A stretch of DNA of 64,000 bases from Lineus longissimus (Eukaryota; Nemertea; Pilidiophora; Heteronemertea; Lineidae): assembly GCF_910592395.1 (NCBI RefSeq), contig NC_088308.1, forward strand, positions 868,001 to 932,000, read 5' to 3'. The notes beneath the pieces were generated by a model. It made no database searches. It saw only the letters and a list, made by a program, of their open reading frames with translations, and was not told the origin of the DNA. The stretch's first letter is position 1; every line of letters starts with the position of its first letter. Below are positions 122-27,660 of the stretch, piece by piece. Made by a program: the position numbers and the translations under genes.

Positions 122-127
122 AATAAA
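122..127 (+). terminator. AATAAA poly(A) signal (end of the unit left of the window)
   Basis: AATAAA lies within ACCAATAAAGACC and recurs at the same place in every unit. It would serve the gene A copy located before base 1, whose last exon is cut off by the window edge. Confidence 0.5.
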
Positions 128-3602: not shown

Positions 3603-3684
3603 TCCCCCATAGTGTAGTGGTCATGGTCCCTGCCTAGTAAGCAGAAACCGCTGGTTCGAGTCCCGCTCGGTCTATTCTTTTTTT
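3603..3684 (+). tRNA. tRNA-Thr(AGT)-like pseudogene or SINE head
   Basis: An A-box-like TAGTGTAGTGGTCA is followed by a CCTGC-CTAGTAA-GCAGA anticodon arm (anticodon AGT), then a B box GGTTCGAGTCC and a run of seven T about 20 nt downstream that fits a Pol III terminator. The T stem has one mismatch and the acceptor stem pairs poorly, so it is unlikely to be a working tRNA. It lies inside the Ginger element upstream of its TATA box. Confidence 0.5.
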
Positions 3685-3774
3685 GTTTATTTCTCTACAT
3701 TACATCTTGCATAATCGATTACAATCATTCGAGTGACTCAACATTCAATCATGATCATCAGTGTAGCCAAGGCC

Positions 3775-3781
3775 TATAAAA
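3775..3781 (+). promoter_or_regulatory. TATAAAA box of the Ginger integrase gene
   Basis: GGCCTATAAAACGC lies 46 bp upstream of the ATG at 3821, a spacing that leaves a short leader. Confidence 0.55.
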
Positions 3782-3820
3782 CGCAAGTGGAAACTTGTAT
3801 TGGCCTTCATTCCTGCCGAG

Positions 3821-5449: not shown

Positions 5450-6099
5450 ACTACGTTCCAGTCTTCATGTCACTGTCAACACATTATCAATACCACAATA
5501 TGTATCAATTCTGGTTAAAAACAGAGTGATTTGAGAGCCCAATTCAAGAGCAGGGTATGATACTAGTATTTATGTCAACCCTTGTGAATACTTGCATTAA
5601 ATACAGAATCTGGTTAAACAGAATGACTTGTTGATTTCTTTATGTACATACATGTACAGTACAAGGCGAATGAAATTGTAAAAGCCATTGCCATAGAAAA
5701 TCGGTAAGCTGCAACACCTCACTGCGAATGAAAATTAGGTGCAGGCACTTTGAGTAGAGTAATGTATCTTCCTTGAAAATCTACTGTAGTTTTGCATAGG
5801 ACTTGGAATACTAGTTTGTTCTAGTAATGGAAGTCCACCTAGGACGGAGATTACTAGATTTTGGACCTACATTCCAAGGAGTCGCGGTCCAAGGACATTG
5901 GTTGCTAGTAACCTAAGTCCTAGGACTCCAGCTCCTAGCCGTCCAGGACCGTAGGACTTAGATTCCCAGGAGTTAGAGTCCGGCGGACTCCAGCTAGGTA
6001 GGTCGTGGGTTACTTTTACACCGGTATTGGGGGAGTGCTGCACCTTTAGTGCAAATACCGTTGAATGACCGCCCATCAATAAGTCGATATTTGGGCCGA

Positions 6100-6136
6100 T
6101 ATATGGAAGTTTCAGGCAATAGATTTCATCAGTTGC
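6100..6136 (+). promoter_or_regulatory. Gene A core promoter, copy 1
   Basis: GATATATGG (TATAT at 6100-6104) lies 31 bp upstream of the A of TCAGTT (6131), a spacing that fits TATA plus Initiator. The predicted leader is about 57 nt. The motif is conserved in all units. In this unit the Ginger element ends 79 bp upstream of the TATA box. Confidence 0.5.
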
Positions 6137-6187
6137 TGCTACAAAGTTGTCCAGTGTCTGTCTAGTATCTACCAATCACCGACGAAG

Positions 6188-7359
6188 ATGAAGAGTACCC
6201 TTGTCATCGTGCTGTTGGCGACTTGCGCCAGTCTCTGGATGGTTCATGCCGGGCCGGTATTTATCGACGATGGATGTATGTACACGTATGATTTCAAATC
6301 CTTAGTGTTATTTTGGACACCATCACTCCTCCTGATCCCTCCACCGTCAGAGGACAGAAGTCCTCCCGACCATTATCATTTTCGTTCATTACAGCTTTGA
6401 GCTGTATTCGAGATATATGAAGTTTTTCGCTGTTTTCGAAAATTTATGAGGGCTTATTCCATACCAAAATGTTATTTACATGTTCAACCATTTGGAAGTA
6501 TCGCCACGCAGAGAATTGTATACAATTCCCTTGTCTAATCTCATATGCAGCCAACGTGCAAGCAAGAAGTAGTGACCCCGTCATTGGGAATTGGAAGAAA
6601 CGATCAGATACCAATGTGCCCGAACCGGCGTAAGTCACTTTTTTCACATGTTTATTCTGAAAAATCATCCAACACATTTCAAGATGGGAGATTCAAAATA
6701 CGATAATACTTTTGGTCAATCGGAATGACCGGAGATACATGTAAATGTACATAAACCGAAACTTTATAAAGGTGTTCCATCGGCTTCCCGCCTCGCGTCC
6801 GTCACGTTCCTGCATGCTTCCCGTCAAAGCCTCCACGGACGTTTCTCGTTACCGTCTTGTCACGTATAAAACATCGTTATTCCCGTCACGTTACGCCAAC
6901 GTGTTGTCATTCTCTTCCGTTTAAAAAACGGTTGATATGAGGTTAATCCCAACCAGAGATGTAGAAAAATTGTTTTATATCTGGTGTGACATACACAGCG
7001 CAATGTGTAAATCCCGTTTGAACCCTATCCGACGCACGGCTATGTCCGCTGGCTAGTATCACTCTAAGCTATCATCATTCGTGGAGAAGGTTGAAAAGCA
7101 GTGCAAATACTAAGGTTGTTTACGCGATATTAGACCCAACCCAACCAAACCAGACCAGATCAAACCAGATCACCTTCGTGCGCGTTTACACGGCAGAACA
7201 ATCTAGAACGATCCGAATCGATAGATCGGTTTAGTCCCGCGTAAGCGGGCGGCCCTGTCGAAAAACGCAATTTCTTGTTTTGTCCAGTTGTTAAAGTCAC
7301 TTCGTCTTTTTTTCCACAGGAAAACTAAATTTGGTTGGTATTACCCCCGACCACATTAA
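6188..7359 (+). CDS. Gene A copy 1: small secreted peptide with diversified C-terminus
   Basis: Three coding exons: 6188-6275 (phase 1 donor GTATGT), 6551-6629 (acceptor TCATATGCAG, donor GTAAGT, phase 2) and 7320-7376 (acceptor TTTTTCCACAG), with TAA at 7357-7359; 68 aa. Exon 1 encodes a signal peptide of about 21 residues: start MKS, hydrophobic VIVLLATCASLW, likely cleavage after MVHA. Exon 2 encodes NVQARSSDPVIGNWKK and then a proline-bearing stretch. The mature part has no cysteine. Exon 3 gives a 12-residue tail rich in aromatic, basic and proline residues (W, YYPRP). This copy alone has three extra bases at the end of exon 2 (one added Ala, frame kept) and KKR where others have KKP, a possible dibasic processing site. 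Function unknown; I do not recognise the family. Confidence 0.78.
7130..7172 (+). repeat. CCAACC/CCAGACCAG short repeat in gene A intron 2
   Basis: CCCAACCAAACCAGACCAGAT-like repeats vary in copy number between units (about 12271, 19009 and 25728 in units 2-4). This is ordinary length variation in a simple sequence. Confidence 0.7.
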
Positions 7360-7672
7360 AGACCTATGATGAAATAGTGAGTAATTTCATGTTACGCTGA
7401 ATCCTGGCAAGGTAATTTTTAAAGTCAAGGTCAGAGCATGCCGATCTACCGGCGTTGTGCGTCCTGTGAAAAGGAGGAGACTTAAGGATTATGTGGTTGG
7501 AGACTTCTAGCGGGTCATAAGCTTATTTGGTTAAACAATTTTGAAGATTTCGACTTGGGTCCTCGCTAAACTTTCAAACCCCACATGGACGTCAAGGAAC
7601 TTTTCCAAAACCGATATTTTTTTCCAAAGACCATATTTCATATACCCCAAAGCTAAACCTCGGCTATGGGCA

Positions 7673-7798
7673 CATTGGGTGATATGAATAAAGACTAGCA
7701 AATGCTTTTACTTCAATTTTGTACAGAAAGACCTGGTGTATATGTACATGAAGTTTTAGATAAAAGCATTTGCTAGTCTTTATTCATATCACCCAATG
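7673..7798. repeat. 38-bp perfect inverted repeat (hairpin), unit 1
   Basis: The arms 7673-7710 and 7761-7798 are fully complementary, starting CATTGGGTGATATG and ending ATGCTTTTA, around a 50-nt loop. The left arm contains AATAAA (7687-7692), so it could also carry an early poly(A) signal for gene A. The hairpin sits 314 bp past the gene A stop and is kept in all four units. Confidence 0.95.
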
Positions 7799-8245
7799 TC
7801 TACAGCGCCCTTTGCTTATGCATCACAGTGCATTTGCAATGCATTTACTGTGCTTCATTGAGGATTTTGGGGCGGGATGTTGCACTAGTGACGGAAGGGC
7901 CAATAAGTCCGGCATAGCTGGTAATTGCCAAACTCTGAGGGAAGAAGCTGGAACACGCTTCAACGCTTCTCTTTATTTCCGACTGAATTTGACTGTGCAT
8001 TTGATGTCGAACACAAAAGAAGAAGAATGAAAATAAGCAGGATATGTCATCTATACTTAATGAAGTGACCCGAATACCAAGTGACTCTATGCCACATTAT
8101 TTGCTAGCGTATCATACACACCTTGATTTGTTCAGGTATTTATGGCTAAGGAGGCAATGCGATCGTACAATATGAAATCTGATACGAGTAGTGTATTTTA
8201 CATCTGTCGCTTGGGACATGTAGAGTCTCTGCTTCTATCTTTCAG

Positions 8246-8445
8246 GTCATGAGTATCGGGTAGAGAAAATTCCCACAGCAAGCTGAGGACACGCGTCTCC
8301 TGGACTCCCAAATACTATATAACGGGCTTACACAGTTACATGTACATGCTTGATCACAATTGAATGCACTTATGCGTGTGTGTACTTGCATGTACATGTT
8401 TATGTATTTGATTACAACATACCAATAAAGACCATTAAATTGAAA
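8246..8445 (+). other. Putative 3' UTR exon of gene A copy 1
   Basis: The strong acceptor TGCTTCTATCTTTCAG (ending 8245) is followed by AATAAA at 8424-8429. Gene A exon 3 ends at a good donor (GTGAGT, 7377) just past its stop, so the transcript may splice to this untranslated exon. The alternative is polyadenylation at 7687. Confidence 0.4.
8424..8429 (+). terminator. AATAAA poly(A) signal for gene A copy 1
   Basis: Same conserved context as at 122; about 180 nt after the putative terminal acceptor. Confidence 0.5.
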
Positions 8446-8996
8446 GGATTGTTTAGTGTTCATTATTCGTCGTGCTTAACCTGAATCGAAAACATGTTGC
8501 AATTACTATCAGAATCCAACTAAATGGAATGCCCTCGAATGCCTGTAGATTCATAAGGTCGGTGAATCTCAACTCTGAAATGTCTTACAGAAATGTATAG
8601 AGGCAATTTTTCCCTCTGTACTTGCACTCAGCATGGGCCAACCCAGCATGGGCCAACCCAGCGCTGTTCATGATCAGGATTTTAGGAAGTGGGAGTCTGA
8701 GCCTCGGTGAGCCGTGTAATGAGGCTGGATTTACATTCAATTCACGTTTGATATACGTTTCACATATGCCACCTGTAATTTACTAAGTCACCATGTCATG
8801 ACATGACGAGAGGATGGAAAGTGACAGCATCATGTAGACCTAAGCAATGATGTGCTCTCCCGTTGATCAAACGGCGAGAGAACCCCGACCTCCCCTGCAT
8901 GCCCGCGCATCTATCGGAGGTCGCGACTATCGTCAGGTATGACAGGGAGGCTGGGGGCAATTTCCAGGTTGACATTGAATATATCCTCTGATGCAG

Positions 8997-9979
8997 ATAC
9001 TTTCCTCGGCACTTTGCAGGGCAGCCTTAAAGTCCTGCCTTGAATACACAAGAGTAGGTAAGTTCTCGGTCATTCTCTGGTTGGTTCCCACAACAGGGCA
9101 CGTCATATTACGGGTCACTCAATTATCGACGAATTGGTCAAATCAGTAGAATGAATATGATAAGACTGAAGTCCAGTCTTATCATTCCACAAGTGAGGCG
9201 TAGACTTTAAAACTGACCTACCAAGCTAAATCAAGCATTTACGCGGTCGCTACAAGTGCAGAGGGTTAGAAGCGTCGATATCCACCACGAAAATGTCAGT
9301 TGCGAACGAAGGTAGGTCTGCATCCGCACCCCGAGGGGAGCTCATCTCGCCGAGGGATCTAAATTCATAAAATGAACGTTTTCTAGTAACTTCCTAAATT
9401 TGGCCGACCCATAATCAAGTTTCCTCAGCTAATGTAACGCCCCATTCCTCATTCACTACTTTCTTGAACCAGCAGTTTGAAAACTTCATGTGGCGAGTCC
9501 AGCATTCAACAAGAGAAAACTTGATTCTGATTATCCATTCAATGATTCGCCAGATCCTCATTTGAATATTCTTGCATACGTCATGATTACTTCGTTTCCC
9601 TCCGTAAAGGTCTTATTGCTTGGAAAGACCATGGGTGGAATTCACCAAGGCATTTTAACGTGCGTGCAATTAAAGACCGATTATCAGATACACGAAGGAT
9701 AAAACAGTGTAGTATTCTACATCACATTAACCCCCTCTCCCCGCAGTTCCTCATCCGCCGATCATATCAAACTTTGAAGGTAGTGATAGATTAGAAAAAA
9801 ACACGATGAAAAAAACCTTTGGGAAGAGCGTCACATCACAGTGAATAAACAGCCCCTACGTGTAACCCACCGACCCATGAACTCCCTACAGTGGACGTAT
9901 ATGTTCTCTTGTTTGTTTCTTGCCTCTCATCATTCTCGTTTTGTTTGTTTTTTTAGCGACGGACACGTGCCAATCGTAA
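8997..9979 (+). pseudogene. Gene B copy 2, broken: exon b with 11-bp deletion, no LDLa exon
   Basis: Exon b (8997-9057) is 61 nt instead of 72 because TGCTCGGTCAG is missing, which breaks the phase 1-1 frame. Exon b2 is 9747-9779, with a Tyr-to-Asn change relative to other units. Exon c starts at 9957 and meets TAA at 9977-9979, as in unit 1. With both a frameshift and loss of the LDLa block, this copy is the most damaged. Confidence 0.55.
9713..9976 (+). repeat. Repeat X, single copy in unit 2
   Basis: 264 bp, same content as in unit 1. Confidence 0.9.
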
Positions 9980-11332
9980 AAAGCGAGGAGCGAGCAAGTG
10001 GAATAAAACCACTTATCCAAAAGTGGAGAGTCTTGATTTCCCTGTACCTGAACAGTCACATGATTAAACCCTAATTCAACCAAGTTTGTGTTGTTTTTCT
10101 TTTTGATATGATGATCGCCACTGGTTGGTGGTATAAAGGAACAAGACATAGACCATCTGATAGACCTCTGTGTCTGTGGATGACTTGGAAGCAGTTGGAG
10201 TCGCGTCCTATGCCCATCTGACGCCATTCCCCGCTCTTTACATGTGTTTTCCACACTGCGTGTGTCTCCATTGTTAAGGTCCACACCTGGTCAGCTGATT
10301 GAGATGAACTGAACGAACCTGTTCCTATCACTGCTGCTCTGCGGTAGATCTCAGAAAGCCTTTAAAACATATCGTTACTATCATCAGCTGGTCATACAAT
10401 CGTTAGACCTACCCCCAATGTGATCAGTTCGTTCGCTTATAAAACACCCCTGGGGTACTCTAGCCATCCACTGTAAGAATTGCATATCATGCATACTTAC
10501 ACGGAATTGACTACGCAGGACAATTCCTGCCAGGAGCTCCGGCGATTATGATTGGGACATCCATTTGAATAGCATCTGTTCCCCGGAGTTTACACTTAAG
10601 GGCGGGTTTACACAGGATTCACGTTGTCACGTGTGAGGATAGTCACGTGTTACCTGTCACGAACATAGTCGTTAATTGACTTAGGCTGAAAACATGTCAT
10701 AACAGGACCTGGGGAAAAAGTGGCATTGTAAATCATACGTGTGGCCTGCTCTTCAGAAATGACTTGTTTGTTAAAATAATATTTACACATTACATGTAAT
10801 AATCATTTTAACTCTACTCTATGTAAACCCAAAATAATTCTATGTAAACCCATCCTTGATTACATTTCTGGTAATAATAGTTACACTTGGATGTTTGTTT
10901 AACCAAAAGTGTATTCGGCTTGCTAATCCGCAGTCACCCTGCGTCATAATAAAGACGGCGATCTACATGTACATGTACAGGCCCGTCGCATCAGCGTTGT
11001 TTTTGTATTTTCGCCGTGCTGCGTAGTTACGCACTGGAGCGACAAAAGATGCAAGGGTGAAAAGTGACATCGTAAATCCTATGTCGCCCGCTATTAAGAA
11101 TATTCTTAGCTTTACACAGTACAAAATGCACTCTCTGTTAACTCGACGGAGGATTTCAACAAATACCGGTATTGGGGGAGTGCTGCACCTTTAGTGCAAA
11201 TACCGTTGAATGACCGCCCATCAATAAGTCGATATTTGGGCCGATATATGGAAGTTTCAGGCAAAAGATTTCATCAGTTGCTGCTACAAAGTTGTCCAGT
11301 GTCTGTCTAGTATCTACCAATCACCGACGAAG

Positions 11333-12532
11333 ATGAAGAGTACCCTTGTCATCGTGCTGTTGGCGACTTGCGCCAGTCTCTGGATGGTTCATGCCGGGCC
11401 GGTATTTATCGACGATGGATGTATGTACACGTATGATTTCAAATCCTTAGTGTTATTTTGGACACCATCACTCCTCCTGATTCCTCCACCGTCAGAGGAC
11501 AGAAGTCCTCCCGACCATTATTATTTTCGTTCATTCCAGCTTTGAGCTGTATTCGAGATATATGAAGTTTTCGCTGTTTTCGAAAATTTATGAGGGCTTA
11601 TTCCATACCAAAATGTCATTTACATGTTCAACCATTTGGAAGTATCGCCGCGCAGAGAATTGTATACAATTCCCTTGTCTAATCTCATATGCAGCCAACG
11701 TGCAAGCAAGAAGTAGTGACCCCGTCATTGGGAATTGGAAGAAACCATCAGATACCAATGTGCCCGAACCGTAAGTCACTTTTTTCACATGTTTATTCTG
11801 AAAAATCATCCAACACATTTCAAGACGGGAGATTCAAAATACGATAATACTTTTGGTAAATCGGAATGACCGGAGATACATGTAAATGTACATAAACCGA
11901 AACTTTATGGAGGTGTTCCATCGGCTTCCCGCCTCGCGTCCGTCACGTTCCTGCATGCTTCCCGTCAAAGCCTCCACGGACGTTTCTCGTTACCGTCTTG
12001 TCACGTATAAAACATCGTTATTCCCGTCACGTTACGCCAACGTGTTGTCATTCTCTTCCGTTTAAAAAACGGTTGATATGAGGTTAATCCCAACCAGAGA
12101 TGTAGAAAAATTGTTTTATATCTGGTGTGACATACACAGCGCAATGTGTAAATCCCGTTTGAACCCTATCCGACGCACGGCTATGTCCGCTGGCTAGTAT
12201 CACTCTAAGCTATCATCATTCGTGGAGAAGGTTGAAAAGCAGTGCAAATACTAAGGTTGTTTACGCGATATTAGACCCAACCCAACCCAACCAAACCAGA
12301 CCAGATCAAACCAGATCACCTTCGTGCGCGTTTACACGACAGAACAATCTAGAACGATCCGAATCGATAGATCGGTTTAGTCCCGCGTAAGCGGGCGGCC
12401 CTGTCGAAAAACGCAATTTCTTGTTTTGTCCAGTTGTTAAAGTCACTTCGTCTTTTTTTCCACAGGAAAACTATAATATTTGGTTCGTATTACCCCTGGC
12501 TATTTGTATTTTCAAGACCTATGATAAAATAG
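11333..12532 (+). CDS. Gene A copy 2: small secreted peptide, longest tail
   Basis: Exons 11333-11420, 11695-11770 and 12466-12531; 76 aa. The signal peptide is identical to copy 1, and exon 2 has KKPSD where copy 1 has KKRSD. The variable exon encodes a 21-residue tail with IIFG, SYYPW and LFVFSRP elements, more hydrophobic than the others. Its stop is TAG at 12530-12532. Here the exon is open right up to the GTGAGT donor, so if that donor is used the stop is rebuilt as TA plus the first G of the next exon. The unit has no Ginger insertion, so the TATA box (about 11245) keeps its ancestral upstream DNA. Function unknown. Confidence 0.78.
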
Positions 12533-12827
12533 TGAGTAATTTCATGCTACGCTGAATCCTGGCAAGGTAATTTTTAAAGTCAAGGTCAGAGCATGCCGGT
12601 CTACCGGCGTTGTGCGTCCTGTGAAAAGGAGGAGACATAAGGATTATGTGGTTGGAGACTTCTAGCGGGTCATAAGCTTATTTGGTTCAACAATTTTAAA
12701 GATTTCGACTTGGGTCCTCGCTAAACTTTCAAACCCCACATGGACGTCAAGGAACTTTTCCAAAACCGATATTTTTTTCCAAAGACCATATTTCATATAC
12801 CCCAAAGCTAAACCTCGGCTATGGGCA

Positions 12828-12953
12828 CATTGGGTGATATGAATAAAGACTAGCAAATGCTTTTACTTCAATTTTGTACAGAAAGACCTAGTGTATATGT
12901 ACATGAAGTTTTAGATAAAAGCATTTGCTAGTCTTTATTCATATCACCCAATG
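12828..12953. repeat. 38-bp inverted repeat, unit 2
   Basis: Arms 12828-12865 and 12916-12953, identical to unit 1. The 50-nt loop differs at one or two bases. Confidence 0.95.
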
Positions 12954-13579
12954 TCTACAGCGCCCTTTGCCTATGCATCACAGTGCATTTGCAATGCATT
13001 TACTGTGCTTCATTGAGGATTTTGGGGCGGGATGTTGCACTAGTGACGGAAGGGCCAATAAGTCCGGCATAGCTGGTAATTGCCAAACTCTGAGGGAAGA
13101 AGCTGGAACACGCTTCAACGCTTCTCTTTATTCCCCAGACTGAATTTGACTGTGCATTTGATGTCGAACACAAAAGAAGAAGAATGAAAATAAGCAGGAT
13201 ATGTCATCTATACTCAATGAAGTGACCCGAATACCAAGTGACTCTATGCCACATTATTTGCTAGCGTATCATACGCACCTTGATTTGTTCAGGTATTTAT
13301 GGCTAAGGAGGCAATGCGATCGTACAATATGAAATCTGATACGAGTAGTGTATTTTACATCTGTCGCTTGGGACATGTAGAGTCTCTGCTTCTATCTTTC
13401 AGGTCATTAGTATCGGGTAGAGAAAATTCCCACAGCAAGCTGAGGACACGCGCCTCCTGGACTCCCAATACTCTATGACGGGCTTACACAGTTACATGTA
13501 CATGCTTGTACACAATTGAATGCACTTATGCGTGTGTGTACTTGCATGTACATGTTTATGTATTTGATTACAACATACC

Positions 13580-13585
13580 AATAAA
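13580..13585 (+). terminator. AATAAA poly(A) signal for gene A copy 2
   Basis: Conserved context. The terminal-exon acceptor CTATCTTTCAG lies about 180 bp upstream (near 13402). Confidence 0.5.
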
Positions 13586-14152
13586 GACCATTAAATTGAA
13601 AGGATTGTTTAGTGTTCATTATTCGTCGTGCTTAACTTGAATCGAAAGCATGTTGCAATTACTATCAGAATCCAACTAAATGGAATGCCCTCGAATGCCT
13701 GTAGATTCATAAGGTCGGTGAATCTCAACTCTGAAATGTCTTACAGAAATGTATAGAGGCAATTTTTCCCTCTTTACTTGCACTCAGCATGGGCCAACCC
13801 AGCATGGGCTAACCCAGCGCTGTTCATGATCAGGATTTTAGGAAGGGGGAGTCTGAGCCTCGGTGAGCCGTATAATGAGGCTGGATTTACATTCAATTCA
13901 CGTTTGATATACGTTTCACATATGCCACCTGTAATTTACTAAGTCACCATGTCATGACATGAGGAGAGGATGGAAAGTGACAGCATCATGTAGACCTAAG
14001 CAGTGACGTGCTCTCCCGTTGATCAAACGGCGAGAGAACCCCGACCTCCCCTACATGCCCGCGCATCTATCGGAGGTCGCGACTATCGTCAGGTATGACA
14101 GGTAGGCTGGGGGCAATCTCCAGGCTGACATTGAATATATCCTCTGATGCAG

Positions 14153-15972
14153 ATACTTTCCTCGGCACTTTGCAGGGCAGCCTGCTCGGTCAGTTAAAGT
14201 CCTGCTTTGAATACACAAGAGTAGGTAAGTTCTCGGTCATTCTCTGGTTGGTTCCCACAACAGGGCACGTCATATTACGGGTCACTCAATTATCGACGAA
14301 TTGGTCAAATCAGTAGAATGAATATGATAAGACTGAAGGCCAGTCTTATCATTCCACAAGTGAGGCGTAGACTTTAAAACTGACCTACCAAGCTAAATCA
14401 AGCATTTACGCGGTCGCTACAAGTGCAGAGGGATAGAAGCGTCGATATCCACCACGAAAATGTCAGTTGCGAACGAAAGTAGGTCTGCATCCGCACCCCG
14501 AGGGGAGCTCATCTCGCCGAGGGATCTAAATTCATAAAATGAACGTTTTCTGGCAACTTCCTAAATTTGGCCGACACATAATCAAGTTTCCTCAGCTAAC
14601 GTAACTCCCCATTCCTCATTCACTACTTTCTTGAACCAGCAGTTTGAAAACTTCATGTGGCGAGTCGAGCATTCGACAAGAGAAAACTTGATTCTGATTA
14701 TCCATTCAATGATTCGCCAGATCCTCATTTGAATATTCTTGCATACGTCATGATTACTTCGTTTCCCTCCGTAAAGGTCTTATTGCTTGGAAAGACCATG
14801 GGTGGAATTCACCAAGGCATTTTGACGTGCGTGCAATTAAAGACCGATTATCTGATACACGAAGGATAAAACAGTGTAGTATTCTACATCACATTAACCC
14901 CCTCTCCCCGCAGTTCCTCATCCGCCGATCATATCATACTTTGAAGGTAGTGATAGATTAGAAAAAAACACGATGAAAAAAACCTTTGGGAAGAGCGTCA
15001 CATCACAGTGAATAAACAGCCCCTCCGTCTAACCCACCGACCCATGAACTCCCTACAGTGGACGTATATGTTCTCTTGTTTGTTTCTTGCCTCTCATCAT
15101 TCTCGTTTTGTTTGTTTTTTTAGCGACGGACACGTGCCAATCGGTTGAGTTTACGGATGCAGGTATGTTTCCCCACTCTTAGAAATGAAGCTTTTGAGCT
15201 TTTGAAAACACTATAAAGGCGGCGATTATATAGAAGTTCACGTTTTCACATAACGTGTCACTGCTCATGAGAACAAACAATTTCCAAAGAGCGGGCTACA
15301 TACGATTCACGATGTCACCTTTCAACCTCACGTCGTCTCTTCAAACCTCAGTCACAGAGCTGACTTGTGACAAGTGAAACGTGAACAGTAACAAGATGAA
15401 GCCTGACATGTTATTCAGCCGACCCAAACTTGCAAAGAGGTTTTCCGTGAAATGAAAAGCCTTCGGAGGTTCATTTGAAAATCTCAAAAAACCTTTTGAC
15501 CTTTTCCATTTTTCCAAAAACCTCTCCGGCCGGGATGCGTTTCGTGTTGGCTGAAAAACCTTTAAATCTTTCAAATGCTCAAGAAACTTTATTTCTGAGA
15601 GTGCTCAGGTTTATTCCCTTATTTGCCGTCGGACAATTTCCAGACTGTTGTTGTTCAGGTTTGATGTGTAGCGTGCTGGTGAGAGCAATCGCTGTCGTTA
15701 GTGCCTTAGGGGATCAGGGGGAAAACAGGAGACAATAACCTACCAACTACCCTTTATTCAGATGAAGTCCCTGATTTACACTCCTTTCTCATTCTCTCCT
15801 ACTTTTAGATCCATGTTTAACCGGGGAAGTCGTTCTCGCTGGAAAAATGCAATGTAAAGTATTTGGTCAAACCGTGTCGTGTCTGTCGAAGTCGTTTATT
15901 TGTGACGGAGAGTGCGACTGCGAGAGCGATTGCCAGGATGAGCTCGAGGGGAACTGTAAATGGAAGAACTAA
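14153..15972 (+). CDS. Gene B copy 3: cysteine-rich LDLa-domain protein, 3' exons
   Basis: Candidate exons: b 14153-14224 (acceptor CTCTGATGCAG, donor GTAAGT), b2 14914-14946 (strong CCTCTCCCCGCAG acceptor), c 15124-15162 (T-rich acceptor, donor GTATGT) and d 15809-15972 ending in TAA. All introns are phase 1 and the frame runs through unbroken. Exon d carries an LDLa-type module: spaced cysteines, FICDGECDCESD, and acidic QDELEGNC, the calcium-cage pattern of this family, with two more cysteines than the canonical six in the module core. LDLa domains are extracellular ligand-binding modules, so a secreted or surface protein is likely. No first exon with a signal peptide of its own was found. 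The phase-1 signal exon of a neighbouring gene A would be frame-compatible. AATAAA occurs at 16578. Confidence 0.6.
14880..15143 (+). repeat. Repeat X, first copy in unit 3
   Basis: Direct repeat with 16447-16710. It contains exon b2 and the start of exon c. Confidence 0.95.
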
Positions 15973-16446
15973 AAGGTGAAGTGTTTTTTCAGACAGATCT
16001 GGCCAAAGGTACTTGGCAGACCTCTTGTCACTAATCTGTAACCGTGTGATCACAAATAGTAATGTTACACAGCCCTGGGCAGCCGGTGTCATAGTTGACC
16101 AGGTTTTGTTGACGCCGTGAAGGACCGTTGATTAGGCCTACCTTAAGAAGATTTACTTTAAGTTGTGACACGCCACTATCTTTTGGTAAATGTGATCTAG
16201 TCACATTGCCGAGTTCAGCAAAGTACCTTTGGCCGGAACGATATGAGAAACACTATAAGAGACAGTTATCAGGTTATGCTAAATGCGGTATCTAGTTATC
16301 AGACAACAGCTGTACCTACGGATGGTGACCAAATCGGCGTGTCGTAAACACGCTCATCACACAAGGACAGCGCTCTTTCAAACCACCTGTCAACTTTACC
16401 ATTCGTGCTAGTTTTTACAGCGCCGTCAGGAGCAGTAGGGACCCGG

Positions 16447-16710
16447 TATTCTACATCACATTAACCCCCTCTCCCCGCAGTTCCTCATCCGCCGATCATA
16501 TCATACTTTGAAGGTAGTGATAGATTAGAAAAAAACACGATGAAAAAAACCTTTGGGAAGAGCGTCACATCACAGTGAATAAACAGCCCCTACGTCTAAC
16601 CCACCGACCCATGAACTCCCTACAGTGGACGTATATGTTCTCTTGTTTGTTTCTTGCCTCTCATCATTCTCGTTTTGTTTGTTTTTTTAGCGACGGACAC
16701 GTGCCAATCG
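16447..16710 (+). repeat. Repeat X, second copy in unit 3
   Basis: It carries a second exon b2 (16481-16513) and a shortened exon c (from 16691) running into TAA at 16711-16713. This offers a short alternative 3' end without the LDLa domain. Confidence 0.95.
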
Positions 16711-18066
16711 TAAAAAGCGAGGAGCGAGCAAGTGGAATAAAACCACTTATCCAAAAAAGGAGAGTCTTGATTTCCCTGTACCTGAACAGTCACATGATTA
16801 AACGCTAATTCAACCGAGTTTGTGTTGTTTTTCTTTTTGATATGATGATCGCCACTGGTTGGTGGTATAAAGGAACAAGACATAGACCATCTGATAGACC
16901 TCTGTGTCTGTGGATGACTTGGAAGCAGTTGGAGTCGCGTCCTATGCCCATCTGACGCCATTCCCCGCTCTTTACAAGTGTTTTCCACACTGCGTGTGTC
17001 TCCATTGTTAAGGTCCACACCTGGTCAGCTGATTGAGATGAACTGAACGAACCTGTTCCTATCACTGCTGCTCTGCGGTAGATCTCAGAAAGCCTTTAAA
17101 ACATATCGTTACTATCATCAGCTGGTCATACAATCGTTAGACCTACCCCCAATGTGATCAGTTCGTTCGCTTATAAAACACCCCTGGGGTACTCTAGCCA
17201 TCCACTGTAAGAATTGCATATCATGCATACTTACACGGAATTGACTACGCAGGACAATTCCTGCCAGGAGCTCCGGCGATTATGATTGGGACATCCATTT
17301 GAATAGCATCTGTTCCCCGGAGTTTACACTTAAGGGCGGGTTTACACAGGATTCACGTTGTCACGTGTGAGGATAGTCACGTGTTACCTGTCACGAACAT
17401 AGTCGTTAATTGACTTAGGCTGAAAACATGTCATAACAGGACCTGGGGAAAAAGTGGCATTGTAAATCATACGTGTGGCCTGCTCTTCAGAAATGACTTG
17501 TTTGTTAAAATAATATTTACACATTACATGTAATAATCATTTTAACTCTACTCTATGTAAACCCAAAATAATTCTATGTAAACCCATCCTTGATTACATT
17601 TCTGGTAATAATAGTTACACTTGGATGTTTGTTTAACCAAAAGTGTATTCGGCTTGCTAATCCGCAGTCACCCTGCGTCATAATAAAGACGGCGATCTAC
17701 ATGTACATGTACAGGCCCGTCGCATCAGCGTTGTTTTTGTATTTTCGCCGTGCTGCGTAGTTACGCACTGGAGCGACAAAAGATGCAAGGGTGAAAATTT
17801 ACATCGTAAATCCTATGTCGCCCGCTATTAAGAATATTCTTAGCTTTACACAGTACAAAATGCACTCTCTGTTAACTCGACGGAGGATTTCAACAAATAC
17901 CGGTATTGGGGGAGTGCTGCACCTTTAGTGCAAATACCGTTGAATGACCGCCCATCAATAAGTCGATATTTGGGCCGATATATGGAAGTTTCAGGCAAAA
18001 GATTTCATCAGTTGCTGCTACAAAGTTGTCCAGTGTCTGTCTAGTATCTACCAATCACCGACGAAG

Positions 18067-19257
18067 ATGAAGAGTACCCTTGTCATCGTGCTGTTGGCGA
18101 CTTGCGCCAGTCTCTGGATGGTTCATGCCGGGCCGGTATTTATCGACGATGGATGTATGTACACGTATGATTTCAAATCCTTAGTGTTATTTTGGACACC
18201 ATCACTCCTCCTGATCCCTCCACCGTCAGAGGACAGAGGTCCTCCCGACCATTATCATTTTCGTTCATTACAGCTTTGAGCTGTATTCGAGATATATGAA
18301 GTTTTCGCTGTTTTCGAAAATTTATGAGGGCTTATTCCATACCAAAATGTCATTTACATGTTCAACCATTTGGAAGTATCGCCGCGCAGAGAATTGTATA
18401 CAATTCCCTTGTCTAATCTCATATGCAGCCAACGTGCAAGCAAGAAGTAGTGACCCCGTCATTGGGAATTGGAAGAAACCATCAGATACCAATGTGCCCG
18501 AACCGTAAGTCACTTTTTTCACATGTTTATTCTGAAAAATCATCCAACACATTTCAAGACGGGAGATTCAAAATACGATAATACTTTTGGTAAATCGGAA
18601 TGACCGGAGATACATGTAAATGTCCATAAACCGAAACTTTATGGAGGTGTTCCATCGGCTTCCCGCCTCGCGTCCGTCACGTTCCTGCATGCTTCCCGTC
18701 AAAGCCTCCACGGACGTTTCTCGTTACCGTCTTGTCACGTATAAAACATCGTTATTCCCGTCACGTTACGCCAACGTGTTGTCATTCTCTTCCGTTTAAA
18801 AAACGGTTGATATGAGGTTAATCCCAACCAGGGATGTAGAAAAATTGTTTTATATCTGGTGTGACATACACAGCGCAATGTGTAAATCCCGTTTGAACCC
18901 TATCCGACGCACGGCTATGTCCGCTGGCTAGTATCACTCTAAGCTATCATCATTCGTGGAGAAGGTTGAAAAGTAGTGCAAATACTAAGGTTGTTTACGC
19001 GATATTAGACCCAACCCAACCCAACCAAACCAGACCAGATCAAACCAGATCACCTTCGTGCGCGTTTACACGGCAGAACAATCTAGAACGATCCGAATCG
19101 ATAGATCGGTTTAGTCCCGCGTAAGCGGGCGGCCCTGTCGAAAAACGCAATTTCTTGTTTTGTCCAGTTGTTAAAGTCACTTCGTCTTTTTTTCCACAGG
19201 AAAACTATAATATTTGGTAGGAATTACCCCCGACGAGGTGTATTTTCAAGACCTTGA
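18067..19257 (+). CDS. Gene A copy 3: small secreted peptide
   Basis: Exons 18067-18154, 18429-18504 and 19200-19264, with TGA at 19255-19257; 73 aa. Exons 1 and 2 encode the same residues as copy 2. The tail begins KTIIFG like copy 2 but then reads RNYPRRGVFSRP, giving three Arg in place of aromatic residues, so the charge is very different. A one-base deletion near the exon end creates the TGA stop. Splice sites are unchanged. Function unknown. Confidence 0.78.
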
Positions 19258-19560
19258 TGAAATAGTGAGTAATTTCATGTTACGCTGAATCCTGGCAAGG
19301 TAATTTTTAAAGTCAAGGTCAGAGCATGCCGATCTACCGGCGTTGTGCGTCCTGTGAAAAGGAGGAGACTTAAGGATTATGTGGTTGGAGACTTCTAGCG
19401 GGTCATAAGCTTATTTGGTTAAACAATTTTAAAGATTTCGACTTGGGTCCTCGCTAAACTTTCAAACCCCACATGGACGTCAAGGAACTTTTCCAAAACC
19501 GATATTTTTTTCCAAAGACCATATTTCATATACCCCAAAGCTAAACCTCGGCTATGGGCA

Positions 19561-19685
19561 CATTGGGTGATATGAATAAAGACTAGCAAATGCTTTTACT
19601 TCAATTTTGTACAGTGTATATGGTGTATATGTACATGAAGTTTTAGATAAAAGCATTTGCTAGTCTTTATTCATATCACTCAATG
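19561..19685. repeat. 38-bp inverted repeat, unit 3
   Basis: Arms 19561-19598 and 19648-19685, with one mismatch (CACTCAATG in the right arm). The loop differs (GTGTATATGGTG repeat). Confidence 0.93.
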
Positions 19686-20310
19686 TCTACAGCGCCCTTT
19701 GCCTATGCATCACAGTGCATTTGCAATGCATTTACTGTGCTTCATTGAGGATTTTGGGGCGGGATGTTGCACTAGTGACGGAAGGGCCAATAAGTCCGGC
19801 ATAGCTGGTAATTGCCAAACTCTGAGGGAAGAAGCTGGAACACGCTTCAACGCTTCTCTTTATTCCCGACTGAATTTGACTGTGCATTTGATGTCGAACA
19901 CAAAAGAAAAAGAATGAAAATAAGCAGGATATGTCATCTATACTTAATGAAGTGACCCGAATACCAAGTGACTCTATGCCACATTATTTGCTAGCGTATC
20001 ATACGCACCTTGATTTGTTCAGGTATTTATGGCTAAGGAGGCAATGCGATCGTACAATATGAAATCTGATACGAGTAGTGTATTTTACATCTGTCGCTTG
20101 GGACATGTAGAGTCTCTGCTTCTATCTTTCAGGTCATTAGTATCGGGTAGAGAAAATTCCCACAGCAAGCTGAGGACACGCGCCTCCTGGACTCCCAATA
20201 CTCTATGACGGGCTTACACAGTATACATGTACATGCTTGTACACAATTGAATGCACTTATGCGTGTGTGTACTTGCATGTTCATGTTTATGTATTTGATT
20301 ACAACATACC

Positions 20311-20316
20311 AATAAA
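20311..20316 (+). terminator. AATAAA poly(A) signal for gene A copy 3
   Basis: Conserved context, as at 122. Confidence 0.5.
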
Positions 20317-20868
20317 GACCATTAAATTGAAAGGATTGTTTAGTGTTCATTATTCGTCGTGCTTAACCTGAATCGAAAACATGTTGCAATTACTATCAGA
20401 ATCCAACTAAATGGAATGCCCTCGAATGCCTGTAGATTCATAAGGTCGGTGAATCTCAACTCTGAAATGTCTTACAGAAATGTATAGAGGCAATTTTTCC
20501 CTCTTTACTTGCACTCAGCATGGGCCAACCCAGCATGGGCTAACCCAGCGCTGTTCATGATCAGGATTTTAGGAAGTGGGAGTCTGAGCCTCGGTGAGCC
20601 GTATAATGAGGCTGGATTTACATTCAATTCACGTTTGATATACGTTTCACATACGCCACCTGTAATTTACTAAGTCACCATGTCATGACATGACGAGAGG
20701 ATGGAAAGTGACAGCATCATGTAGACCTAAGCAGTGACGTGCTCTCCTGTTGATCAAACGGCGAGAGAACCCCGACCTCCGCTGCATGCCCGCGCATCTA
20801 TCGGAGGTCGCGACTATCGTCAGGTATGACAATCTCCAGGCTGACATTGAATATATCCTCTGATGCAG

Positions 20869-22689
20869 ATACTTTCCTCGGCACTTTGCAGGGCAGCCTG
20901 CTCGGTCAGTTAAAGTCCTGCTTTGAATACACAAGAGTAGGTAAGTTCTCGGTCATTCTCTGGTTGGTTCCCACAACAGGGCACGTCATATTACGGGTCA
21001 CTCAATTATCGACGAATTGGTCAAATCAGTAGAATGAATATGATAAGACTGAAGTCCATTCTTATCATTCCACAAGTGAGGCGTAGACTTTAAAACTGAC
21101 CTACCAAGCTAAATCAAGCATTTACGCGGTCGCTACAAGTGCAGAGGGTTAGAAGCGTCGATATCCACCACGAAAATGTCAGTTGCGAACGAAAGTAGGT
21201 CTGCATCCGCACCCCGAGGGGAGCTCATCTCGCCGAGGGATCTAAATTCATAAAATGAACGTTTTCTGGCAACTTCCTAAATTTGGCCGACACATAATCA
21301 AGTTTCCTCAGCTAACGTAACTCCCCATTCCTCATTCACTACTTTCTTGAACCAGCAGTTTGAAAACTTCATGTGGCGAGTCGAGCATTCGACAAGAGAA
21401 AACTTGATTCTGATTATCCATTCAATGATTCGCCAGATCCTCATTTGAATATTCTTGCATACGTCATGATTACTTCGTTTCCCTCCGTAAAGGTCTTATT
21501 GCTTGGAAAGACCATGGGTGGAATTCACCAAGGCATTTTAACGTGCGTGCAATTAAAGACCGATTATCTGATACACGAAGGATAAAACAGTGTAGTATTC
21601 TACATCACATTAACCCCCTCTCCCCGCAGTTCCTTATCCGCCGATCATATCATACTTTGAAGGTAGTGATAGATTAGAAAAAAACACGATGAAAAAAACC
21701 TTTGGGAAGAGCGTCACATCACAGTGAATAAACAGCCCCTACGTCTAACCCACCGACCCATGAACTCCCTACAGTGGACGTATATGTTCTCTTGTTTGTT
21801 TCTTGCCTCTCATCATTCTCGTTTTGTTTGTTTTTTTAGCGACGGACACGTGCCAATCGGTTGAGTTTACGGATGCAGGTATGTTTCCCCACTCTTAGAA
21901 ATGAAGCTTTTTGAGCTTTTGAAAACACTATAAAGGCGGCGATTATATAGAAGTTCACGTTTTCACATAACGTGTCACTGCTCATGAGAACAAACAATTT
22001 CCAAAGAGCGGGCTACATACGATTCACGATGTCACCTTTCAACCTCACGTCGTCTCTTCAAACCTCAGTCACAGAGCTGACTTGTGACAAGTGAAACGTG
22101 AACAGTAACAAGATGAAGCCTGACATGTTATTCAGCCGACCCAAACTTGCAAAGAGGTTTTCCGTGAAATGAAAAGCCTTCGGAGGTTCATTTGAAAATC
22201 TCAAAAAACCTTTTGACCTTTTCCATTTTTCCAAAAACCTCTCCGGCCGGGATGCGTTTCGTGTTGGCTGAAAAACCTTTAAATCTTTCAAATGCTCAAG
22301 AAACTTTATTTCTGAGAGTGCTCAGGTTTATTCCCTTATTTGCCGTCGGACAATTTCCAGACTGTTGTTGTTCAGGTTTGATGTGTAGCGTGCTGGTGAG
22401 AGCAATCGCTGTCGTTAGTGCCTTAGGGGATCAGGGGGAAAACAGGAGACAATAACCTACCAACTACCCTTTATTCAGATGAAGTCCCTGATTTACACTC
22501 CTTTCTCATTCTCTCCTACTTTTAGATCCATGTTTAACCGGGGAAGTCGATCTCGCTGGAAAAATGCAATGTAAAGTATTTGGTCAAACCGTGTTGTGTC
22601 TGTCGAAGTCGTTTATTTGTGACGGAGAGTGCGACTGCGAGAGCGATTGCCAGGATGAGCTCGAGGGGAACTGTAAATGGAAGAACTAA
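20869..22689 (+). CDS. Gene B copy 4: cysteine-rich LDLa-domain protein, 3' exons
   Basis: Candidate exons: b 20869-20940, b2 21630-21662, c 21840-21878, d 22526-22689 (TAA 22687-22689). All are phase 1-1, with the splice sites of copy 3. Exon d differs from copy 3 at two codons, both changing the residue (Val to Asp in the leading segment, Ser to Leu just before a conserved Cys), and b2 has a His-to-Tyr change. All cysteines and the CDGECDCESDCQDE acidic core are kept. The first exon is not identified. A second b2 and shortened c' lie downstream in X2 (stop at 23429-23431), as in unit 3. Confidence 0.6.
21596..21859 (+). repeat. Repeat X, first copy in unit 4
   Basis: Direct repeat with 23165-23428; 264 bp. 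Confidence 0.95.
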
Positions 22690-23164
22690 AAGGTGAAGTG
22701 TTTTTTCAGACAGATCTGGCCAAAGGTACTTGGCAGACCTCTTGTCACTAATCTGTAACCGTGTGATCACAAATAGTAATGTTACACAGCCCTGGGCAGC
22801 CGGTGTCATAGTTGACCAGGTTTTGTTGACGCCGTGAAGGACCGTTGATTAGGCCTACCTTAAGAAGATTTACTTTAAGTTGTGCCACGCCACTATCTTT
22901 TGGTAAATGTGATCTAGTCACATTGCCGAGCTTCAGCAAATTACCTTTGGCCGGAACGATATGAGAAACACTATAAGAGACAGTTATCAGGTTATGCTAA
23001 ATGCGGTATCTAGTTATCAGACAACAGCTGTACCTACGGATGGTGACCAAATCGGCGTGTCGTAAACACGCTCATCACACAAGGACATCGCTCTTTCAAA
23101 CCACCTGTCAACTTTACCATTCGTGCTAGTTTTTACAGCGCCGTCAGGAGCAGTAGGGACCCGG

Positions 23165-23428
23165 TATTCTACATCACATTAACCCCCTCTCCCCGCAGTT
23201 CCTCATCCGCCGATCATATCAAACTTTGAAGGTAGTGATAGATTAGAAAAAAACACGATGAAAAAAACCTTTGGGAAGAGCGTCACATCACAGTGAATAA
23301 ACAGCCCCTACGTCTAACCCACCGACCCATGAACTCCCTACAGTGGACGTATATGTTCTCTTGTTTGTTTCTTGCCTCTCATCATTCTCGTTTTGTTTGT
23401 TTTTTTAGCGACGGACACGTGCCAATCG
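23165..23428 (+). repeat. Repeat X, second copy in unit 4
   Basis: Followed directly by TAA (23429-23431) in the exon c frame. Confidence 0.95.
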
Positions 23429-24784
23429 TAAAAAGCGAGGAGCGAGCAAGTGGAATAAAACCACTTATCCAAAAAAGGAGAGTCTTGATTTCCCTGTACC
23501 TGAACAGTCACACGATTAAACCCTAATTCAACCGAGTTTGTGTTGTTTTTCTTTTTGATATGATGATCGCCACTGGTTGGTGGTATAAAGGAACAAGACA
23601 TAGACCATCTGATAGACCTCTGTGTCTGTGGATGACTTGGAAGCAGTTGGAGTCGCGTCCTATGCCCATCTGACGCCATTCCCCGCTCTTTACAAGTGTT
23701 TTCCACACTGCGTGTGTCTCCATTGTTAAGGTCCACACCTGGTCAGCTGATTGAGATGAACTGAACGAACCTGTTCCTATCACTGCTGCTCTGCGGTAGA
23801 TCTCAGAAAGCCTTTAAAACATATCGTTACTATCATCAGCTGGTCATACAATCGTTAGACCTACCCCCAATGTGATCAGTTCGTTCGCTTATAAAACACC
23901 CCTGGGGTACTCTAGCTATCCACTGTAAGAATTGCATATCATGCATACTTACACGGAATTGACTACGCAGGACAATTCCTGCCAGGAGCTCCGGCGATTA
24001 TGATTGGGACATCCATTTGAATAGCATCTGTTCCCCGGAGTTTACACTTAAGGGCGGGTTTACACAGGATTCACGTTGTCACGTGTGAGGATAGTCACGT
24101 GTTACCTGTCACGAACATAGTCGTTAATTGACTTAGGCTGAAAACATGTCATAACAGGACCTGGGGAAAAAGTGGCATTGTAAATCATACGTGTGGCCTG
24201 CTCTTCAGAAATGACTTGTTTGTTAAAATAATATTTACACATTACATGTAATAATCATTTTAACTCTACTCTATGTAAACCCAAAATAATTCTATGTAAA
24301 CCCATCCTTGATTACATTTCTGGTAATAATAGTTACACTTGGATGTTTGTTTAACCAAAAGTGTATTCGGCTTGCTAATCCGCAGTCACCCTGCGTCATA
24401 ATAAAGACGGCGATCTACATGTACATGTACAGGCCCGTCGCATCAGCGTTGTTTTTGTATTTTCGCCGTGCTGCGTAGTTACGCACTGGAGCGACAAAAG
24501 ATGCAAGGGTGAAAAGTGACATCGTAAATCCTATGTCGCCCGCTATTAAGAATATTCTTAGCTTTACACAGTACAAAATGCACTCTCTGTTAACTCGACG
24601 GAGGATTTCAACAAATACCGGTATTGGGGGAGTGCTGCACCTTTAGTGCAAATACCGTTGAATGACCGCCCATCAATAAGTCGATATTTGGGCCGATATA
24701 TGGAAGTTTCAGGCAAAAGATTTCATCAGTTGCTGCTACAAAGTTGTCCAGTGTCTGTCTAGTATCTACCAATCACCGACGAAG

Positions 24785-25963
24785 ATGAAGAGTACCCTTG
24801 TCATCGTGCTGTTGGCGACTTGCGCCAGTCTCTGGATGGTTCATGCCGGGCCGGTATTTATCGACGATGGATGTATGTACACGTATGATTTCAAATCCTT
24901 AGTGTTATTTTGGACACCATCACTCCTCCTGATCCCTCCACCGTCAGAGGACAGAAGTCCTCCCGACGATTATCATTTTCGTTCATTACAGCTTTGAGCT
25001 GTATTCGAGATATATGAAGTTTTTCGCTGTTTTCGAAAATTTATGAGGGCTTATTCCATACCAAAATGTCATTTACATGTTCAACCATTTGGAAGTATCG
25101 CCGCGCAGAGAATTGTATACAATTCCCTTGTCTAATCTCATATGCAGCCAACGTGCAAGCAAGAAGTAGTGACCCCGTCATTGGGAATTGGAAGAAACCA
25201 TCAGATACCAATGTGCCCGAACCGTAAGTCACTTTTTTCACATGTTTATTCTGAAAAATCATCCAACACATTTCAAGACGGGAGATTCAAAATACGATAA
25301 TACTTTTGGTAAATCGGAATGACCGGAGATACATGTAAATGTACATAAACCGAAACTTTATGGAGGTGTTCCATCGGCTTCCCGCCTCGCGTCCGTCACG
25401 TTCCTGCATGCTTCCCGTCAAAGCCTCCACGGACGTTTCTCGTTACCGTCTTGTCACGTATAAAACATCGTTATTCCCGTCACGTTACGCCAACGTGTTG
25501 TCATTCTCTTCCGTTTAAAAAACGGTTGATATGAGGTTAATCCCAACCAGAGATGTAGAAAAATTGTTTTATATCTGGTGTGACATACACAGCGCAATGT
25601 GTAAATCCCGTTTGAACCCTATCCGACGCACGGCTATGTCCGCTGGCTAGTATCACTCTAAGCTATCATCATTCGTGGAGAAGGTTGAAAAGTAGTGCAA
25701 ATACTAAGGTTGTTTACGCGATATTAGACCCAACCCAACCAAACCAGACCAGACCAGATCAAACCAGATCACTTCGTGCGCGTTTACACGGCAGAACAAT
25801 CTAGAACGATCCGAATCGATAGATCGGTTTAGTCCCGCGTAAGCGGGCGGCCCTGTCGAAAAACGCAATTTCTTGTTTTGTCCAGTTGTTAAAGTCACTT
25901 CGTCTTTTTTTCCACAGGAAAATTAAATTTGAATGGAATTACCCCCCGCTAGTTGTATTTTAA
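24785..25963 (+). CDS. Gene A copy 4: small secreted peptide
   Basis: Exons 24785-24872, 25148-25223 and 25918-25980, with TAA at 25961-25963; 69 aa. Exons 1-2 encode the same protein as copies 2 and 3. The tail, KIKFEWNYPPLVVF, differs at most positions from the other three and is the only one with a Glu. Only the leading Lys, an aromatic/hydrophobic segment and a Tyr-Pro pair are shared by all tails. Splice sites and flanking intron sequence are as in the other units. Function unknown. Confidence 0.78.
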
Positions 25964-26275
25964 AGACCAATGATGAAATAGTGAGTAATTTCATGCTACG
26001 CTGAATCCTGGCAAGGTAATTTTTAAAGTCAAGGTCAGAGCATGCCGATCTACCGGCGTTGTGCGTCCTGTGAAAAGGAGGAGACTTAAGGATTATGTGG
26101 TTGGAGACTTCTAGCGGGTCATAAGCTTATTTGGTTAAACAATTTAAAGATTTCGACTTGGGTCCTCGCTAAACTTTCAAACCCCACATGGACGTCAAGG
26201 AACTTTTCCAAAACCGATATTTTTTTCCAAAGACCATATTTCATATACCCCAAAGCTAAACCTCGGCTATGGGCA

Positions 26276-26405
26276 CATTGGGTGATATGAATAAAGACTA
26301 GCAAATGCTTTTACTTCAATTTTGTACAGAAAGACCTAGTGTATATGTGCATGAAGTTTTACTGAGATAAAAGCATTTGCTAGTCTTTATTCATATCACC
26401 CAATG
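26276..26405. repeat. 38-bp inverted repeat, unit 4
   Basis: Arms 26276-26313 and 26368-26405 pair perfectly. The loop has a 4-bp insertion (ACTG), so the arms are better kept than the loop. Confidence 0.95.
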
Positions 26406-27030
26406 TCTACAGCGCCCTTTGCCTATGCATCACAGTGCATTTGCAATGCATTTACTGTGCTTCATTGAGGATTTTGGGGCGGGATGTTGCACTAGTGACG
26501 GAAGGGCCAATAAGTCCGGCATAGCTGGTAATTGCCAAACTCTGAGGGAAGAAGCTGGAACACGCTTCAACGCTTCTCTTTATTCCCCAGACTGAATTTG
26601 ACTGTGCATTTGATGTCGAACACAAAAGAAGAAGAATGAAAATAAGCAGGATATGTCATCTATACTCAATGAAGTGACCCGAATACCAAGTGACTCTATG
26701 CCACATTATTTGCTAGCGTATCATACGCACCTTGATTTGTTCAGGTATTTATGGCTAAGGAGGCAATGCGATCGTACAATATGAAATCTGATACGAGTAG
26801 TGTATTTTACATCTGTCGCTTGGGACATGTAGAGTCTCTGCTTCTATCTTTCAGGTCATTAGTATCGGGTAGAGAAAATTCCCACAGCAAGCTGAGGACA
26901 CGCGCCTCCTGGACTCCCAATACTCTATGACGGGCTTACACAGTTCATGTACATGCTTGATCACAATTGAATGCACTTATGCGTGTGTGTACTTGCATGT
27001 ACATGTTTATGTATTTGATTACAACATACC

Positions 27031-27036
27031 AATAAA
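27031..27036 (+). terminator. AATAAA poly(A) signal for gene A copy 4
   Basis: Conserved context; the last array feature before exon b of unit 5. Confidence 0.5.
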
Positions 27037-27588
27037 GACCATTAAATTGAAAGGATTGTTTAGTGTTCATTATTCGTTGTGCTTAACCTGAATCGAAAAC
27101 ATGTTGCAATTACTATCAGAATCCAACTAAATGGAATGCCCTCGAATGCCTGTAGATTCATAAGGTCGGTGAATCTCAACTCTGAAATGTCTTACAGAAA
27201 TGTATAGAGGCAATTTTTCCCTCTTTACTTGCACTCAGCATGGGCCAACCCAGCATGGGCTAACCCAGCGCTGTTCATGATCAGGATTTTAGGAAGTGGG
27301 AGTCTGAGCCTCGGTGAGCCGTATAATGAGGCTGGATTTACATTCAATTCACGTTTGATATACGTTTCACATACGCCACCTGTAATTTACTAAGTCACCA
27401 TGTCATGACATGACGAGAGGATGGAAAGTGACAGCATCATGTAGACCTAAGCAGTGACGTGCTCTCCTGTTGATCAAACGGCGAGAGAACCCCGACCTCC
27501 CCTGCATGCCCGCGCATCTATCGGAGGTCGCGACTATCGTCAGGTATGACAATCTCCAGGCTGACATTGAATATATCCTCTGATGCAG

Positions 27589-27660
27589 ATACTTTCCTCG
27601 GCACTTTGCAGGGCAGCCTGCTCGGTCAGTTAAAGTCCTGCTTTGAATACACAAGAGTAG
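27589..27660 (+). pseudogene. Gene B copy 5: exon b only
   Basis: Exon b has intact splice sites, but the array ends at 28313, before b2, so the remaining exons are gone. Confidence 0.55.

Follow-up and report, generated by a model that had tools for sequence, protein, structure and literature searches.

The window analysed here, a 64-kb stretch of the Lineus longissimus contig NC_088308.1 (positions 868,001 to 932,000), has a G+C content of 39-46% in 2-kb steps and a eukaryotic gene layout. Its left part is a tandem array of units carrying a small gene predicted to encode a secreted peptide, hereafter called gene A. Four complete copies, named c1 to c4, follow one another in tandem within the window, so that the array contains at least four. 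The left edge of the window cuts the array, and its right end was placed at 28313 by self-BLAST. The copies are about 99% identical, introns included, with the exception of one short exon coding for the tail of the peptide. The segment from 48001 to 64000 was examined through the list of open reading frames (ORFs), its composition, self-comparison and a Pfam scan of six ORFs. Splicing is throughout predicted from sequence, and the resulting coordinates are collected in Table 1.

The spliced models are concordant in c1 to c4. Exon 1 contains the ATG and a signal peptide recognised by eye, ends at the donor GAT/GTATGT in all four models, and is followed by exons 2, 3 and 4. Exon 3, with a length of 57-66 nt, is framed by the acceptor TTTTTTTCCACAG and the donor GTGAGT, both identical in the four copies, as the original prediction had indicated when describing unchanged sequence on either side. 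The exon 3 coordinates that it gave were exact in every copy. It also presented exon 3 as the last exon of the gene: this holds for the coding part, and a further exon, predicted to be the 3' untranslated region (3'UTR) and terminating in AATAAA, comes after it. The exon phases are compatible and each copy forms a stop codon, located inside exon 3 in c1, c3 and c4 and spanning the exon 3/4 junction in c2.

Table 1. Predicted exons of the gene A copies and associated features of the array (positions in the window)
Feature	Position	Strand	Basis
Tandem array, units of ~5.1-8.3 kb, four gene A copies	1..28313		self-BLAST, inter-unit identity 97-99%
c1 exon 1 coding part: signal peptide and propeptide start	6188..6275	+	ORF from ATG, donor; signal peptide by eye
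c1 exon 2: propeptide with Lys-Lys-Arg	6551..6629	+	splice signals, phase
c1 exon 3: variable tail KTKFGWYYPRPH, then stop	7320..7376	+	gene model, alignment counts
c1 exon 4: predicted 3'UTR to AATAAA	8246..8429	+	acceptor CTTTCAG, polyadenylation signal
c2 exon 1 coding part	11333..11420	+	gene model
c2 exon 2 (Lys-Lys-Pro)	11695..11770	+	gene model
c2 exon 3: tail KTIIFGSYYPWLFVFSRPMIK; stop across exon 3/4 junction	12466..12531	+	gene model, frame check
c2 exon 4: predicted 3'UTR to AATAAA	13403..13585	+	gene model
c3 exon 1 coding part	18067..18154	+	gene model
c3 exon 2 (Lys-Lys-Pro)	18429..18504	+	gene model
c3 exon 3: tail KTIIFGRNYPRRGVFSRP, then stop	19200..19264	+	gene model, frame check
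c3 exon 4: predicted 3'UTR to AATAAA	20133..20316	+	gene model
c4 exon 1 coding part	24785..24872	+	gene model
c4 exon 2 (Lys-Lys-Pro)	25148..25223	+	gene model
c4 exon 3: tail KIKFEWNYPPLVVF, then stop	25918..25980	+	gene model, frame check
c4 exon 4: predicted 3'UTR to AATAAA	26855..27036	+	gene model
Hairpin-forming inverted repeat in intron 3, variation in the middle	c1 7672..7799; c2 12827-12954; c3 19560-19686; c4 26275-26406		self-BLAST, DNA fold, variation counts

The four copies were aligned around gene A over 2302 columns. Substitutions were found in 58 columns: exon 3, which spans 66 columns, accounts for 19 of them, and the other 39 fall among the remaining 2236 (Fisher P 1.3e-16). 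When the columns were shuffled 5000 times, the richest 66-column window held at most 10 substitutions, versus the 19 observed in exon 3. The contrast is unusually clean: none of the 120 columns to the left of exon 3 is variable, then 26 of the 66 inside it are (gaps counted), in copies otherwise about 99% alike. On the right side, 1/50 and 3/120 columns are variable. Substituted columns amount to 0/88 in the coding part of exon 1, 1/79 in exon 2 (plus one 3-bp gap) and 7/275, 10/695 and 18/875 in introns 1, 2 and 3, respectively, in agreement with the shared signal peptide and the nearly identical middle exon and introns already reported. Exon 4 as a whole, with 8/185 columns, lies somewhat above the introns and far below exon 3. 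Any two copies differ by 12.5-19.1% within exon 3 and by 0.54-1.13% over the remaining ~2.3 kb, which makes exon 3 11 to 35 times as divergent. Exon 3 thus diverges well beyond the flanking introns, and its variation is bounded by the splice sites as the original prediction claimed. The unit starts, which are outside this alignment, differ by 0.7-2.5%. In a longer alignment of three units (5174 columns), exon 3 forms the highest 60-column peak with 16 substitutions, the next ones reaching 9 (at the alignment start, inside exon 4) and 7 (in the intron 3 hairpin). Transversions are relatively commoner in exon 3 (7 transitions and 12 transversions) than in the rest of the 2302-column alignment (26 and 13). 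The two gaps of 6 and 3 bp that had been announced were both found in the core of exon 3, together with a further 1-bp gap near the tail end in c3, which leads to an immediate stop. A mis-joined assembly would have difficulty in producing four different exons between near-identical flanks.

Exon 3, which the earlier description held to be the sole variable part, is the largest hotspot in the alignment, but a second one lies ~300 bp downstream in the hairpin of intron 3. The middle of this hairpin is variable in 12 of 56 columns, versus 0 and 1 of 38 in the two outer parts, the limits being set by hand. The DNA fold of the c1 hairpin copy has a z of -15, and the variability at its centre perhaps reflects mutation at the centre of a palindrome.

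The predicted precursors of c1 to c4 comprise 68, 76, 73 and 69 residues, respectively. Exons 1 and 2 encode an invariant signal peptide and a mildly acidic propeptide (net charge -1 to -2), and the tails of 12-21 residues are basic-aromatic (net charge +1 to +5). No cysteine follows the 21-residue signal in any of the four precursors. Lys-Lys-Arg precedes the tail in c1 only; c2 to c4 read Lys-Lys-Pro, which leaves a bare KK. The proposal of a released mature region is weak, its motif being present in c1 alone, and the tail may act still joined to the propeptide. Basic, aromatic and cysteine-free tails would fit a defence peptide directed at membranes or microbes, and also a recognition signal. 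We infer a defence role, with sexual recognition or venom as the next candidates.

That exon 3 is non-coding, an intronic or RNA element whose tails are not peptides, is in our view very unlikely. Its short length and the lack of homologues in the search with the c2 precursor would agree with this possibility. In opposition to it, the acceptor and donor are invariant, the phases are compatible, a stop is formed in each copy, and in a six-frame check no frame but the predicted one stayed open over codons 1-12 in every copy. The Rfam scan of the window at the gathering threshold returned 0 matches. An RNA element was also rejected on the basis of the RNA folds around exon 3, which are unremarkable (z +0.60 to -1.67).

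Codon tests were performed on a hand-made alignment of 16 codons (48 columns of exon 3) with gaps set at codon edges, in which the first base of the exon and its last ~18 columns were left out; MAFFT places the 6-bp gap of c1 otherwise. Stop codons were excluded from dN/dS and included in the codon-position counts. Codon positions 1, 2 and 3 account for 5, 9 and 2 of the 16 variable columns, respectively, and no codon carries a purely synonymous difference. In neutral simulations, the probability of two or fewer third positions was 0.045 and that of at most one synonymous change 0.053. Four tail codons, AAA, TTT, TAC and CCC (Lys, Phe, Tyr and Pro), are invariant in DNA as well; the leading Lys and the Tyr-Pro pair had been noted as the only residues kept, to which Phe has to be added. 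dN exceeded dS in each of the six pairs; with 6.8-11.5 synonymous sites available, dS took values between 0 and 0.26. Taken together, the single open frame, the core gaps of 3 and 6 bp, the scarce third-position changes and the lack of synonymous-only codons favour selection acting on the protein.

These observations bear on another explanation, in which no diversifying selection acts: the tail would be dispensable, and exon 3 would be either a hotspot of neutral mutation or a stretch of old sequence that conversion misses. The stop positions do shift, giving tails of unequal length, dS is similar in magnitude to dN in several pairs, the second hotspot in the hairpin has no known coding meaning, and codons 1-12 stay stop-free in 43% of the neutral simulations, which makes their openness unremarkable. 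Relaxed constraint alone, on the other hand, cannot exceed the intron rate, and the frame-preserving core gaps, the splice-site edges, the third-position count and the missing synonymous-only codons also speak against neutrality, which we regard as unlikely. Relaxed constraint by itself cannot give 11 to 35 times the intron divergence; either the exon 3 variants are far older than their flanks or mutation is targeted.

Exchange within the array was assessed on an alignment of five unit starts, where 28 of the 78 pairs formed by 13 informative sites fail the four-gamete test. Unequal crossing-over and gene conversion would fit such mosaicism, recurrent mutation at some sites being an alternative; the suggestion that gene conversion homogenises everything except exon 3 is supported in this indirect manner, and repeated mutation could also give incompatible sites. 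Inside exon 3 the site groupings conflict as well, two sites joining c1 with c4, one c1 with c2 and one c1 with c3, by either patch exchange or parallel change.

Such conflicting patterns could also come from a mutator or patch-copying process aimed at exon 3, be it template switching, conversion of short stretches from unseen donors or hairpin-provoked repair, selection being secondary. The observed ratio of 11-35 exceeds what selection on new point mutations usually yields. By eye, the changes come in multi-base patches, with both variable third-position columns falling within multiply changed codons, and a strong hairpin with a variable middle lies nearby. For conotoxins, PMC4409773 reports that targeted mutagenesis has been put forward. 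Against such a process stand the edges at the splice sites, the under-represented third positions and the frame kept across 12 codons in every copy. Moreover, a search of the window outside the four exons, where a donor of cassettes could have been located, gave no exact 13-, 14- or 16-base match to the 41-base cores of exon 3, and the unremarkable RNA folds lend the process no help. We consider it quite improbable. Still less credible is a germline, template-driven rewriting of patches of exon 3 from a pool of tail cassettes, the surrounding array staying homogeneous; if true, a secreted peptide of recognition or defence would possess a heritable generator of diversity.

The interpretation that we prefer, with a probability of about 0.6, is that selection for differing tails of the secreted peptide maintains the exon 3 variants in a homogenised array. 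The tail would be in contact with a variable partner, in all likelihood microbial or otherwise non-self. The array would be repeatedly homogenised through unequal exchange and gene conversion, and selection for unlike tails would preserve old exon 3 variants as distinct and promote new changes. Homogenised flanks combined with selected tails would leave exon 3 many times more divergent than the neighbouring DNA. If the variants are old, homogenising exchange in the flanks would extend as far as the splice sites, and exchange across exon 3 would be selected against. Selection on the peptide is favoured by the codon-position pattern, the gaps that keep the frame and the edges at the splice sites. 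The multi-base clusters of change seen by eye, together with a dS above zero, point to old variants and would also accommodate a process that makes patches.

Several points weigh against this interpretation. The data comprise four copies, whose 16 codon columns were aligned manually. The third-position deficit is borderline (binomial P 0.059 on columns and 0.044 on changes), as is the scarcity of synonymous changes, one or none among 17 (binomial P 0.082). The dS of exon 3 is not low, which fits an old or mutation-prone segment and not selection on new mutations alone. The intact ORFs of exons 1 and 2 are expected by chance at 1% divergence, and c1, c3 and c4 terminate within exon 3 at differing points. 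A conserved dibasic release site ahead of the tail is absent in c2 to c4. For the c2 precursor, which was the one searched, the protein homologue search gave 1 candidate and none at E<=1, and Pfam no match at E<=1. With so few sites (P 0.04-0.08) and dS up to 0.26, dN/dS inside exon 3 cannot prove selection, and the argument consequently depends on the ratio of 11-35 between exon and flanks. The diversifying selection put forward in the original prediction is partly backed by the conserved leader, the homogeneous flanks, the divergent tail and the splice-bounded variation; the dN/dS check it called for, run on the four copies of the window, gave the expected direction in every pair and was not decisive. 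With this array, the old question whether variants are selected or mutation is targeted in hypervariable peptide genes becomes testable at a single locus.

Other features were observed in the window. Two exons with good splice signals and a cysteine-rich stretch are located at 15124-15162 and 15809-15972, and again at 21840-21878 and 22526-22689. They resemble by eye a low-density lipoprotein (LDL) receptor class A module, for which Pfam at E<=1 gives no call. Their phase fits exon 1 of gene A, whose leader might splice to this alternative end; a homologue search with the hypothetical leader and cysteine-rich ORF gave 1 candidate, none at E<=1. The second of these exons shows two substitutions between copies, both changing the amino acid (V/D and S/L). 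The block is flanked by a 265-bp direct repeat (14879-15143, 16446-16710, 21595-21859 and 23164-23428). In the other two complete units the block is missing and the repeat occurs once (from 1421 and 9712), as a deletion between repeats would give, and the right end of the array coincides with the left edge of this repeat. At 3287-6019, 169 bp before the ATG of c1, lies a 2.7-kb insertion; its ends are inverted by eye (ACCGGTGTAAAAG / CTTTTACACCGGT), and pieces of it resemble by eye a transposon integrase tail, the three pieces scanned being without Pfam match. Outside the array, we identified a SET-domain ORF at 30175-30717 (PF00856, E 8.7e-11), with relatives of 80% and 73% identity (2 hits among 19 candidates), and a minisatellite at 39988-40455 with a 22-bp unit and ~21 copies by length. 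Repeats that look tRNA-derived by eye occur at 3605-3675 and 36596-36685; Rfam calls none, and ARAGORN, run on the window with the bacterial code, returned 0.

A conserved leader and conserved introns beside a divergent tail exon form a pattern best known in venom and defence peptides. Gene A shows the general features of a diversifying secreted-peptide family, namely a conserved leader, a divergent tail and divergence above that of introns. Conotoxins are mostly cysteine-rich, unlike the tails of gene A, which contain 0 cysteines and in which no cysteine framework was found. The general homologue and Pfam searches with the c2 precursor, in which no dedicated conotoxin set was included, gave no hit at E<=1. 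The likeness lies in the layout: as described in PMC3862624, conotoxin genes carry signal, pro-region and mature part on roughly three exons, with introns conserved within a superfamily, and gene A is predicted to have these parts on successive exons. In the superfamilies I1, O2, O3, S and T covered there, Dn and Ds both peak in exon 3 (PMC3862624); that Ds rises there too is counted here as a difference from gene A. Mussel CRP-I, as presented in PMC10138031, similarly combines a conserved signal and propeptide with an extremely diverse mature part in the final exon and many copies; it differs in its six cysteines (C-C-CC-C-C, in the last coding exon). Frog skin antimicrobial peptides are, like gene A, clustered small secreted precursors with a signal peptide and diversified peptides; according to PMC3731216, RXXR/KR/RR processing motifs almost always border those peptides, whereas gene A has Lys-Lys-Arg in c1 only. 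The cysteines or processing motifs typical of these families are missing from gene A, which may work like them without being assigned to any. The citrus SCAmpPs-3/-4 genes described in PMC4409773 have an identical first exon and intron and >99.9% identity across 2.5 kb, adjoining a hypervariable peptide-coding stretch of 15-24 bp. They share with gene A a small precursor, clustered copies and near-identical DNA beside the hypervariable stretch, and differ in being plant genes with two exons and a cyclic peptide of 5-10 residues (PMC4409773); the comparison drawn here is one of pattern. Gene A is best read as a putative orphan family of secreted defence-type peptides, probably diversified like the conotoxins or the citrus SCAmpPs, with tails open to synthesis and assay.

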